A stretch of 64,000 nt of DNA, from positions 372,001-436,000 of the forward strand of contig NZ_CP062005.1 in assembly GCF_014840935.1 (NCBI RefSeq), in the 5' to 3' direction. The translations under genes and the position numbers were made by a program. Under the pieces are notes generated by a model, which had not been told where the DNA came from, did no database searches, and saw only the letters and a list, made by a program, of their open reading frames with translations. Source of the stretch: Halomonas sp. YLGW01 (GTDB lineage Bacteria > Pseudomonadota > Gammaproteobacteria > Pseudomonadales > Halomonadaceae). The first letter of the stretch is position 1. Each line of letters begins with the position of its first letter. Below are positions 20,038 to 27,323 of the stretch, piece after piece.

Positions 20038-20511
20038 TCAGCCCAGGTAGGCGTTGAGCATCCAAACGGTCTTTTCCTGCTCGCGGATGTAGTCACCCAC
20101 CTGGGCGGCGGTGCCTTCATCGTCGGCGTCGGAGGCCAGCGACAGGATCTCGCGCTGCAGGCCGATCATTGTCTGGTAGCCCTCAAGGATGCCGCGCACA
20201 CAGGCCTGGCCATCGTGGACGTTCTTGTCCTCGGTGATTTCCGAGAGTTTCACGTAGTCGCTGTAGGCATGCACCGGCGTGTGGCCCAGAGTCAGGATGC
20301 GCTCGGCGACCTCGTCGACCTTGAGCAGCAGGTCGGTGTAGTACTCCTCGAACTTGGTATGCAGCTCGAAGAATTGATTGCCCTTCACGTTCCAGTGATA
20401 GCCGCGCACGTTCATGTAGAAAATCTGATAGTTGGCCAGCAATGTGTTGAGGCGCTCGGCAAGCTGGCTGGCGCTGCTCTCGTGCAATCCGATGGCATTG
20501 GTATCGGTCAT
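20038..20511 (-). CDS. dps: Dps-family ferritin-like DNA-protection protein
   Basis: Forms a dodecameric shell that oxidises and stores Fe(II) with peroxide, protecting DNA under oxidative stress. The ATG at 20511 follows a near-perfect AAGGAGG site, giving 157 residues; the upstream open frame to 20604 is not Dps-like. Ferroxidase ligands are visible in FYMNVRGYHWNVKGNQFFELH and in the D/E pair of LLLKVDEVAERI. The C terminus (QEKTVWMLNAYLG) is the family norm and there is no Lys-rich N-terminal tail, so DNA binding may be weak. A repeated OxyR-like dyad array lies upstream (20603-20668), and a strong terminator follows. Confidence 0.94.
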   Translation of the reverse strand: MTDTNAIGLHESSASQLAERLNTLLANYQIFYMNVRGYHWNVKGNQFFELHTKFEEYYTDLLLKVDEVAERILTLGHTPVHAYSDYVKLSEITEDKNVHDGQACVRGILEGYQTMIGLQREILSLASDADDEGTAAQVGDYIREQEKTVWMLNAYLG

Positions 20512-20551
20512 GGGGATACCTCCTTGATCTTGGGTGAGTTCGATTGAAGCC

Positions 20552-20557
20552 ACTATA
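20552..20557 (-). promoter_or_regulatory. Candidate dps -10 element
   Basis: On the minus strand TATAGT is preceded by TTATCG with an 18-bp spacer, 41 bp upstream of the dps ATG. It is the best sigma-70-like match in this leader, moderate at the -35. Confidence 0.4.
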
Positions 20558-20602
20558 GGGTCTTGCGGTGCCCGGCGATAAGGAAATCTCGCCATCATCA
20601 CC

Positions 20603-20668
20603 ATAGAACTGATCTATGAATGGAACCGCGCTATGAACAGAACCGCTCTATAAATGGGACTGCTCTAT
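20603..20668. promoter_or_regulatory. Four tandem OxyR-like dyads upstream of dps
   Basis: The 310-bp gene-free space 20512-20821 contains ATAG-N7-CTAT (20603-20617), then ATGG-N7-CTAT (20620-20634), ACAG-N7-CTAT (20637-20651) and ATGG-N7-CTAT (20654-20668), at an exact 17-bp period. ATAG-N7-CTAT is one half of the known OxyR recognition pattern, and OxyR control of dps is established in enterobacteria. The period of 17 differs from the 22 bp of the classical tetrameric site, so the array may instead be repeat expansion. The remainder (20670-20821) holds the leader of the divergent lipoprotein gene and no ORF. Confidence 0.5.
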
Positions 20669-20821
20669 GACATGCCGCCGATCGCAGCGCTTTTCAAGGT
20701 CCTGCTCATATATCCTCGCGCACTCTCGTCCGTGGTCGCCTTCCGTCAGTGGCGAAGGCTATGCCCAGGCCCGCCATGTCGACATACACTGAAAGGCAGG
20801 GCGTGAGGGCGTGAGGATGCG

Positions 20822-21400
20822 ATGAAGTCACCATGCAGGGAACAACAGGGACCATTGGCCGGCGGGTGGAGGTGGGCATGCCTGGCGTGCATGCTGCTGG
20901 CCGGCTGCACGAGCGCCCCGGCGTACCTGCCCGAGCCGACGGTGGCGCCCGTGGAGGGCTGTCAGTGGACGGCGCCCGAGGCCGGCTCGCTTGGCTACCT
21001 GCGGCGGGTGATGGCCGCCCTGGAGGCGGATGACTTCGTGATCGTCGAGACCGAGGCCAGGCTCGGGCTGGTCACCGCCCAGCGCAGCCGCGTGCTGGCC
21101 GGCTACGGGGCGCCCTGGCACGAGCCCATGCCCTTCGGGCTGTCGGGGGCCTTCGGCCTGGGGGCAGGGCACCACCGCGCCGGCATGGCGATCAACCTGA
21201 ACCGCAGCTTCGGCGTTGATCCTACGCAGATCGAGCGGATCTCGGTGGTCGCCCGCGATAAGTGGGTTCGGGTCTCCCGGGACCTTCAAGTCGTCGAGGC
21301 CGACGGGCGCCTGCGCAGTGGCCGTGTGGTCCCCAGCGAGGCATTCTGTCGCGCGCTGCGGGAGGCCCTCGCGCGCCTTCCCGAGGCGCCTACCTCATGA
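20822..21400 (+). CDS. Putative outer-membrane lipoprotein, first of an overlapping pair
   Basis: A 192-residue protein with a lipobox (MLLAGC) after a rather long 28-residue leader, so it should be lipidated and anchored. The mature part reads as a compact alpha/beta domain (LGYLRRVMAALEADDFVIVETEARLGLVTAQRSR, then MAINLNRSFGVDPTQIERISVVARDKWVRVSRDLQ). I do not recognise the family. A GAGG site lies five bases before the ATG. Its TGA overlaps the next gene's ATG (ATGA), so both are translated together, and the two proteins share a similar pattern around FVI-x4-xLG. Confidence 0.75.
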   Translation: MKSPCREQQGPLAGGWRWACLACMLLAGCTSAPAYLPEPTVAPVEGCQWTAPEAGSLGYLRRVMAALEADDFVIVETEARLGLVTAQRSRVLAGYGAPWHEPMPFGLSGAFGLGAGHHRAGMAINLNRSFGVDPTQIERISVVARDKWVRVSRDLQVVEADGRLRSGRVVPSEAFCRALREALARLPEAPTS

Positions 21401-25916: not shown

Positions 25917-27227
25917 CTAGAGGAAGGTGAGGCCCAGCGCGATGATGATGCCGGTGATGACCAGCTGGATCAGGCAGTAGCCCATGATGTCCTTGGCCTT
26001 GAGCCCGGCGATGGCCAGTACCGGCAGGGCCCAGAAGGGCTGCAGCAGGTTGGTCCAGGCATCCCCCCAGGCCACCGCCATGGCGATGCGCGGGATATCG
26101 GCACCCAGCGCCGCCGCCGCCGGCAGCATCACCGGTGCCTGCACCGCCCACTGGCCGCCGCCGGAGGGCACGAAGAGGTTGACCACGCCGGCGCTGATGA
26201 AGGACCAGAAGGGCAGCGTTTCGGCACTGGCGAAGGAGACGAAGAGCTCCGATAGGGTCTGAGCCAGGCCCGATTGCACCATGATCGCCATGATGCCCGC
26301 ATAAAAGGGGAACTGGATGACGATGCCGGCGCCGCCCTGGATGGCTTCCTGAAGGCTGGCCAGCAGCCGGCGTGGGGTGCGATGCAGCACGATGGCCAGG
26401 AACAGGAACAGGAAGTTGATCACGTTCAGGTTGAGCCCGCCGCCGCGCAGCACGAAGTGATCGAGCAGGAACAGGAGGCCGGGGATGCCCACCAGCCAGG
26501 CCAGGGCACGGCTGTTCTCGAGCCGTTCGGCCGGGCGGGTGATGCGCACGCGGGTCTCCTGCTCATCCTCCAGCAGCGCCGGGTCGACGTAAATACTCTC
26601 GTCTTCGCTTGGCAGCATCAGGCGATTGACCAGGGGTACGCTGACCAGCAGCATGGCGACGATCGCCAGGTTGAACCAGGAGAAGATGGTCTCCGAGGTC
26701 GAGACGATCCCGATCTGCTCGACGGTGAAGTGGCCCTCGGTGGCGATGGTCAGCGGGATCGAGCCGGCGAGCCCCGCGTGCCAGATCACGAAGCCCGAAT
26801 AGGCGCTGGCGACCAGCAGCCGGTAGTCGACGCGGATCTGGCGCGCCAGTTCCTTGGCGAACAGCGCCCCGATCACCAGGCCGAAGCCCCAGTTGATCCA
26901 GCTGGCCAGGAGCGATACCAGGGTGACCAGCACGATGGCGCTGCCGGCGTTCTTGGCCTTGCCGGCAAGCCCCGCCAGCAGCCGCTTGACCGGCGGCGTG
27001 TTGGCCAGCATGAAGCCGCTGATCAGTACCAGCAGCATCTGCATCGAGAAGGTCAGCAGGTTCCAGAAGCCATCGCCCCAGAAACGCAGCACGTCCAGCG
27101 GGGTCTGGCGCTCGACCGCGATGGCCGCCACGGCGGCGACCAGCGTCAGCAGCAGCACGAAAATGTAGGGGTCCGGCAGGTAGCGTTCTACCAGCTTGAC
27201 TGCCGGTCGGGAAAGCATCTTGAGCAT
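25917..27227 (-). CDS. atoE: Short-chain fatty acid transporter (AtoE family)
   Basis: A 436-residue inner-membrane protein with a dozen or so spans and the AtoE pattern (LVERYLPDPYIFVLLLTLVAA, SWINWGFGLVIGALFAKELARQ, NLFVPSGGGQWAVQAPVMLPAA, MAVAWGDAWTNLLQPFWALP). Takes up acetoacetate or short-chain fatty acids by family precedent. AAGG lies nine bases before the ATG. No ato catabolic genes are adjacent; the only neighbour in the same direction is a thioesterase. Tandem 15-bp repeats fill its leader. Confidence 0.88.
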   Translation of the reverse strand: MLKMLSRPAVKLVERYLPDPYIFVLLLTLVAAVAAIAVERQTPLDVLRFWGDGFWNLLTFSMQMLLVLISGFMLANTPPVKRLLAGLAGKAKNAGSAIVLVTLVSLLASWINWGFGLVIGALFAKELARQIRVDYRLLVASAYSGFVIWHAGLAGSIPLTIATEGHFTVEQIGIVSTSETIFSWFNLAIVAMLLVSVPLVNRLMLPSEDESIYVDPALLEDEQETRVRITRPAERLENSRALAWLVGIPGLLFLLDHFVLRGGGLNLNVINFLFLFLAIVLHRTPRRLLASLQEAIQGGAGIVIQFPFYAGIMAIMVQSGLAQTLSELFVSFASAETLPFWSFISAGVVNLFVPSGGGQWAVQAPVMLPAAAALGADIPRIAMAVAWGDAWTNLLQPFWALPVLAIAGLKAKDIMGYCLIQLVITGIIIALGLTFL

Positions 27228-27243
27228 GATCCGTTGCCTTTGT

Positions 27244-27323
27244 TGTCAGAAACGAAGTTGTCAGAAGCGAAGTTATTAGAAACGAAGCTGTCAGGAGCGA
27301 ACTGTGGTTGTCAGGAACACATT
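27244..27323. repeat. 15-bp degenerate tandem repeats upstream of atoE
   Basis: Four contiguous units of consensus TGTCAGAARCGAAGT run from 27244 to 27303, and a fifth degenerate unit (TGTCAGGAACACATT) lies at 27309-27323 after a 5-bp insert. They occupy most of the 136-bp space between the MATE gene's 3' end and atoE. No spacers or protein-coding role are seen. Confidence 0.85.

Follow-up and report, generated by a model that had tools for sequence, protein, structure and literature searches.

The peroxide regulator OxyR recognizes sites of the form ATAG-N7-CTAT-N7-ATAG-N7-CTAT in E. coli and P. aeruginosa. In the excerpts of the papers cited here, the elements of this pattern are given as 11 bp apart (PMC5720770, PMC8787470), and the two dyads of published sites are separated by an interval of 7-10 bp (PMC8787470). 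The OxyR site of P. aeruginosa ahpC matches the pattern at 12 of 16 bases (PMC5720770). At E. coli oxyS, IR1 and IR2 are predicted at -66 and -44, with a distance of 31 bp between IR1 and IR3 (PMC5002191). The dps gene is an OxyR target in both E. coli (PMC8115020) and S. oneidensis (PMC8787470). Among the matches listed in the literature, covered as titles and abstract openings and thinly for subscription papers, we found no description of an OxyR-controlled dps promoter in Halomonas or of tandem OxyR half-sites.

The dps promoter described here is like the OxyR-controlled dps promoters of E. coli and Shewanella in that the same gene carries the same kind of site. Its promoter-proximal repeat unit is an exact first half of the OxyR pattern and a second half follows 22 bp on. 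The modelled positions of the two dyads, about -65 and -43, resemble those predicted for E. coli oxyS (PMC5002191), and the 12 of 16 matching bases equal the count for P. aeruginosa ahpC (PMC5720770). Unlike a canonical OxyR site, it has a degenerate second half and three extra copies of the first half at a 17-bp period, which falls outside the published 7-10 bp interval (PMC8787470). It also differs from the E. coli and Shewanella dps promoters in that the distal dyad is multiplied and a putative heat-shock-like element lies upstream. We consider it likely that this is an ordinary OxyR-controlled dps promoter, in which this lineage has amplified a 17-bp segment containing the distal dyad from a single copy to four.

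The dps locus and its four-unit array

The window, meaning the whole 64-kb stretch of DNA that was analysed, corresponds to bases 372001-436000 of a genome assembled as a single 3.45-Mb contig. Among the matches listed, the named dps genes closest to that of the window are those of Onishia taeanensis, O. niordana and Halomonas salinarum, and the window branches beside the same three in a tree of dps genes. On both grounds, the host appears to be a member of the Halomonadaceae close to Onishia. The dps gene (20038-20511, minus strand) encodes a 157 aa Dps/ferritin-like protein and is preceded by a ribosome-binding site at 20516-20525. Its product matches Pfam PF00210 and three NCBIfam models, all of them Dps models and every one below its cut-off. 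A divergent ORF of 192 aa (20822-21400, plus strand) has a lipoprotein-like start by eye and no match in Pfam or NCBIfam. This lipoprotein-like ORF adjoins dps here, and other Halomonadaceae loci also have homologues of it in the vicinity of dps. In the named relatives L002-L005, the homologue is some 1.6 kb upstream of dps, and the ORF that precedes dps seems by eye to be a different, co-directional one.

Four 17-bp units stand head to tail at 20603-20670, upstream of dps. The preliminary description of this DNA had reported four tandem A[TC][AG]G-N7-CTAT dyads at this period with an exact ATAG-N7-CTAT nearest dps; span, period and pattern are exactly as claimed, and the unit sequences confirm the exact copy. 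On the plus strand, the dyads read ATAG-AACTGAT-CTAT (20603-20617), ATGG-AACCGCG-CTAT (20620-20634), ACAG-AACCGCT-CTAT (20637-20651) and ATGG-GACTGCT-CTAT (20654-20668), in order of increasing distance from dps. The dps-strand sequences of the units are U1 TCATAGAGCAGTCCCAT, U2 TTATAGAGCGGTTCTGT, U3 TCATAGCGCGGTTCCAT and U4 TCATAGATCAGTTCTAT, with U4 nearest the gene. The ATAG arm is retained in all four and is followed after seven bases by CCAT in U1, CTGT in U2, CCAT in U3 and CTAT in U4. Ten of the 17 columns are invariant and any two units are identical at 12-14 of 17 positions. Invariant columns make up 6/8 of the arm positions vs 4/9 of the others, an excess that is not significant (p=0.33).

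The array exceeds chance expectation. Among the 55 rows that Tandem Repeats Finder returned for the window it scores highest, with 90 for its 34-bp row and 74 for its 17-bp row, where the runner-up array scores 78. Compared with 60 dinucleotide shuffles of the 200-bp region, its self-match score is higher by 12.1 s.d. Within the window, the unit consensus is matched at 13 or more of 17 positions in only four places, which are the four units themselves. Across the whole genome, 14 places lie within three mismatches of the consensus, namely the four units and 10 scattered singles, and a reversed-pattern control gives 11. A dispersed-repeat reading was ruled out, the unit having no clustering elsewhere in the genome. 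The window contains another tandem array at 27242-27305, with about 4 copies of a 15 bp unit (GTTGTCAGAAACGAA), which lies 14 nt upstream of the start of a minus-strand ORF (25917-27227) that is membrane-protein-like by eye.

Anatomy of the dps promoter in the Halomonadaceae

A dps match is present in 259 of 275 family genomes. Drawn from the dps places listed, the promoter sample combines 94 distinct upstream regions from 110 loci with 60 further stretches, giving 154 regions, of which 152 are distinct in their last 200 bp. The further stretches come from 63 that were chosen among 120 places, the other 57 being dropped since they shared a contig position with an earlier locus. One upstream region (L169) was cut 3 bases off, its dps match having begun at residue 2, and was retained. 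L174 comes from the same genome as L053 and, being identical to it, was removed.

The best match to the four-element OxyR pattern upstream of dps in the window is formed by U4 together with a downstream half. U4 (20603-20619, minus strand) would be the distal dyad and recognition half of the site, centred at 20610, and the predicted activation half is a degenerate ATGG-N7-TCCT (20581-20595, minus strand) centred 22 bp from it. The first dyad is exact, 7 bp separate it from the second, and the second differs at one of four bases in one arm and three of four in the other, for a total of 4 mismatches in 16. Over the roughly 200 bp upstream of dps, the best match in the 152 family promoters has 4-8 mismatches (21 promoters at 4, 36 at 5, 59 at 6, 29 at 7 and 7 at 8). 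The same regions reversed give best matches with 6-10 mismatches, 8 of them at 6 and none lower.

We aligned the family promoters on CTAT-N7-AT, whose bases are therefore fixed by choice; 146 of the 152 could be aligned and six could not. The aligned promoters share conserved elements at -11 (AT), 0 (CTAT), +11 (ATG) and +22 to +26, so that the four elements of the family dps site are 11 bp apart, and a -10-like TAnnCT is conserved at +49. The predicted OxyR-type dps site is conserved in the Halomonadaceae. A weight matrix was built from 145 family dps sites, with the window's own site excluded and the congeners included. U4 scores 13.8 in this matrix, ranking third of 127,966 window positions, with a similar score in both directions. 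The OxyR reading for U4 is well supported by this family conservation together with the OxyR gene and the OxyR-pattern sites described below. The preliminary description had set the 17-bp period against the 22 bp of known OxyR sites. The 17-bp period is no OxyR geometry; the 22-bp geometry is present, in the family-conserved pair of U4 and 20581-20595.

Downstream of U4, the alignment points to a weak -35-like hexamer TTATCG (20576-20581, minus strand), modelled from family conservation, and to a modelled -10 hexamer TATAGT (20552-20557, minus strand) where TAnnCT is conserved. We infer a transcription start at about 20545 from the conserved -10, and it is this start that would place the dyad centres at about -65 and -43. 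A strict sigma-70 consensus scan found no promoter upstream of dps. OxyR would act on dps from U4 and the downstream half.

On its far side, the array is abutted by a distal promoter-like element, CTTGAA (20693-20698)-N17-GCATGT (20670-20675), which spans 20670-20698 on the minus strand next to U1 and is heat-shock (sigma-32)-like. Sigma-32 promoters have the consensus CTTGAA and CCCCATnT, about 13-17 bp apart. We take the distal dps element to be close to this consensus, but it has CGCCnGCATnT rather than CCCCATnT. CTTGAA occurs upstream of the core in 119 of the 152 family promoters, vs 5 of 152 reversed and 1 of 152 reverse-complement controls. The family consensus of the element is CTTGAAAA-N10-CGCCnGCATnT; a single fixed spacing (N17) separates CTTGAA from GCATnT in 61 of 152 promoters, and from CCATnT in none. 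At groES of the same genome, CTTGAAA is followed by CCCCCACT. A genome scan with the sigma-32 pattern returned 7 places (reversed control, 3), two of which adjoin rRNA-leader-like sequence by eye. The dps promoter is not among them because it has GGCATGT where the pattern asked for C, so the scan neither supports nor refutes the label. The family-wide alignment yields a testable model of the dps promoter in the Halomonadaceae, made up of an OxyR-type site and a heat-shock-like element.

Origin and possible roles of the extra units

We compared the window with six congeners (L082-L087), which are the other genomes of the same genus among the dps matches listed, at one genome per species. Each of the six carries a single TCATAG-N7-CTATG unit, and the flanks match, with GGCAT(G/C) to one side of it and (G/A)(T/G)GATGATGGCGA to the other. 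Their single unit aligns at the position of U4, and U1 retains the upstream flank common to the congeners. CTTGAA is 41 bp from the core CTAT in every congener and 92 bp from it in the window genome, an excess of exactly 51 bp, or 3 x 17. The same 41 bp is the commonest distance in the family, accounting for 44 of the 114 promoters in which both elements are present.

Because all six congeners are single-unit and the difference is exactly 51 bp, the likely history is that the distal half-site of an ordinary OxyR-dps promoter expanded in tandem in this lineage; the direction of change is read from the single-unit state of congeners and outgroups. With 3-5 of 17 positions differing between any two units, the expansion is unlikely to be recent. 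One of the two readings in the preliminary description was that a half-site had been tandemly duplicated, and it gains support from the matching flanks and the additional 51 bp. The comparison of dps promoters across related genomes that the description had proposed bears it out, in that copy number differs between relatives, with four units here and one in each congener. The same description had held that absence of the repeats from close relatives with the same dps regulation would tell against its proposal. The relatives do keep a single OxyR-type site without the array, which argues against a needed role; that their dps regulation is the same is read from sequence.

Arrays recur at this spacer. 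Twenty of the 152 family promoters contain a tandem array at z>4.5, and sorting by eye places 11 of these so that they end at the OxyR core (periods 13-20), 6 as repeats of CTTGAA and 3 elsewhere. The periods in other lineages include 13, 14, 18 and 20, and CTTGAA itself is in tandem repeats in L048, L199, L039, L033, L151 and L076. The three extra copies would have arisen by replication slippage or unequal recombination, as at the same spacer in other Halomonadaceae. The locus resembles intergenic short tandem repeats of the VNTR kind in its head-to-tail units and in a copy number that varies between species and a period that varies between lineages. It is unlike VNTR-like loci in the divergence of its units, and the comparison is between species, with one genome each.

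In a tree of 81 dps genes, six rows with core arrays need six changes, and labels shuffled 500 times give a mean of 5.8 with all 500 as low. The core arrays are scattered on the dps tree and not clustered. Five of the 11 core arrays are among these rows, together with L050, whose z is only about 4.5; the remaining six core arrays are outside the tree. One gain followed by several losses within Vreelandella would be an alternative history, and the window's case lies apart from Vreelandella. We also considered a rule that only the last unit keeps CTAT. It fits the window's three extra units when they are read on the dps strand, as well as the in-register non-terminal units of a 12-row table, and was dropped as an argument because L042 and L071 keep further CTAT arms, by eye, with a slip to 13 bp.

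The preliminary description had also proposed that OxyR might bind an extended 17-bp array. Successive dyads are separated by 2 bp and alternate dyads by 19 bp, and neither spacing provides the 7-10 bp interval by which array units could be paired as OxyR tetramer sites. With a gap of 2 bp, the extra units form no known tetramer site with their neighbours. Three observations led us to reject, as the main reading, an extended array on which OxyR would follow a geometry of its own: this 2-bp interval, the periods that vary between lineages, and the absence of the array from congeners. As a tetramer array the geometry would be unlikely. A reduced-OxyR site built from alternate units was also tried and fits poorly, the units being 34 bp apart vs the predicted 31 bp from IR1 to IR3 in E. 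coli oxyS; it survives only as an element of the multi-site operator considered below. The evidence points to 17 bp being the period of a duplication, with no new OxyR geometry behind it, and so the most surprising interpretation of the locus falls away.

Individually, the extra units vary in how closely they resemble an OxyR site. U3 (20620-20636, minus strand) reads ATAG-N7-CCAT, which is ATGG-N7-CTAT on the plus strand, and scores 13.6 (rank 4 of 127,966 window positions) on that strand vs 1.0 (rank 132) on the dps strand. U1 (20654-20670, minus strand), the promoter-distal copy, has the same arms and scores 12.7 (rank 9) vs 2.1 (rank 92). U2 (20637-20653, minus strand; ATAG-N7-CTGT) is the most decayed and scores poorly both ways, at -1.1 (rank 230) on the plus strand and -0.3 (rank 178) on the dps strand. 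A second, weaker four-element match (5 mismatches) runs from the upstream flank across U1 and U2, which means that OxyR-like sequence is present within the array as well. Given their plus-strand ranks, U1 and U3 are plausible weak OxyR dimer sites. The extra copies would at most be auxiliary, low-affinity dimer sites, and we rate the extra units as auxiliary or neutral.

A neutral array, made by slippage in a spacer that tolerates changes in length and with no effect on dps, overlaps the expansion reading and is a serious contender, to which we give a little less than even weight. Arrays of similar length occur in other intergenic DNA: at z>4.5 they are found in 5 of 91 control intergenic regions, and the window itself holds the 15 bp array of about 4 copies at 27242-27305. 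Copy number and period also vary between species. Against neutrality stands a modest excess at dps, where 12 of 78 upstream regions contain such arrays (p=0.04), or 9 of 78 vs 3 of 91 at a score of at least 14 (p=0.07). This enrichment is weak, since the z>4.5 cut was chosen after seeing the data and the control gene calls were crude (longest ORFs); its rows also share descent, and among the five control matches three look mutually homologous. The 78 regions are drawn from 80, with L023 and L070 left out by design. The repeated units also coincide with regulatory elements, 11 of the 20 high-scoring arrays ending at the OxyR core and 6 repeating CTTGAA (e.g. L048, L199) by eye, and the ATAG arm persists in 4/4 units that are otherwise only 12-14 of 17 identical.

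That persistence, with the plus-strand ranks of U3 and U1 (4th and 9th of 127,966), could instead reflect a functional multi-site OxyR operator, in which U1, U3 and U4 each bind a dimer and thereby raise occupancy and alter the peroxide threshold or the basal repression of dps. The 5-mismatch match over the flank, U1 and U2 beats all 152 reversed controls, arrays recur at this site in other lineages, and L042 and L071 keep extra CTAT arms by eye. In S. oneidensis, according to the excerpted report, octamers of OxyR form on DNA and OxyR regulates Dps in both directions (PMC8787470). We nevertheless regard such an operator as improbable. Its dyads would lie 2 bp apart, not 7-10, at a period of 17 bp or 1.6 helical turns; the dps-strand scores of U1, U2 and U3 are only 2.1, -0.3 and 1.0; and alternate units exceed the predicted IR1-IR3 distance of E. 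coli oxyS by 3 bp (PMC5002191). The periods of 13, 14, 18 and 20 in other lineages imply that no fixed geometry is maintained, and the congeners manage without an array.

A bolder proposal, on which we would place similarly little weight, treats the spacer as an evolvable dial in the Halomonadaceae. Independent expansions of the distal dyad (17 bp here, 13-20 elsewhere) or of CTTGAA would add OxyR or sigma sites, separate a heat-shock-type promoter from a peroxide-responsive one and retune dps species by species, with U1, U3 and U4 here holding several OxyR dimers. It is very unlikely that another regulator uses the dyads, or that they act on the divergent lipoprotein-like gene at 20822 instead of dps: the dyads are near-symmetric and U1 and U3 score better towards that gene, but the site keeps a fixed distance from the dps -10 where the next upstream ORF differs (ORFs by eye), and the second half and promoter elements are on the dps side.

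For the expansion of an ordinary OxyR-dps promoter, the plainest physical effect would be that the distal heat-shock-like promoter now lies 51 bp further from the OxyR core. In single-unit relatives, the predicted start of the distal element falls inside the OxyR dyad, so the expansion here would separate the two promoters. The preliminary description had expected either of its readings to change the peroxide sensitivity of dps, and the extra units may alter it. If the extra dyads bind OxyR, the one-unit congeners and the four units here would constitute a natural experiment on how half-site copy number tunes the peroxide response.

OxyR and OxyR-pattern sites elsewhere in the genome

The genome has 38 matches to the NCBIfam OxyR model, of which one stands out at 254.8 bits, the next being 124.3. 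This candidate (L137:3281-4201) is below the curated cut-off of 329, and OxyR is still its top NCBIfam match. Its best match among solved structures is P. aeruginosa OxyR (4x6g, 449.7 bits). By eye, the gene adjoins a RecG-like ORF and its product has a C-x8-C spacing of redox cysteines; the corresponding E. coli OxyR cysteines are C199 and C208 (PMC8115020). The genome is predicted to encode a P. aeruginosa-like OxyR.

The canonical 16-base OxyR pattern occurs with up to three mismatches at 3 places in the whole genome, each with exactly 3 mismatches, and at 1 in the reversed control. One match is 84 bp ahead of a GrxA-family glutaredoxin gene (grxA) and another 77 bp ahead of a gene for peroxiredoxin C. 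In E. coli, OxyR induces glutaredoxin 1 (PMC8115020). The third OxyR-like site (L112 1501-1537) lies between two minus-strand ORFs and has no obvious oxidative-stress gene beside it. We also looked for an OxyR site at katG in this genome and found no good one, the best match having 8 mismatches; the motif is therefore not shown by every expected OxyR target.

One dyad alone is weak evidence for OxyR: CATAG-N7-CTATG with at most one mismatch occurs at 62 places in the genome, and its reversed control at 31. The genome has just three sites that match CATAG-N7-CTATG exactly. One of these (L124 1501-1517; G000:C1:3300054-3300070) adjoins a Fur-box-like AATGAGAATCAATCTCAT and precedes a small ORF that is membrane-protein-like by eye. 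Another exact site (L122 1501-1517; G000:C1:170329-170345) is located just before an ORF that appears by eye to be FtsH-like.
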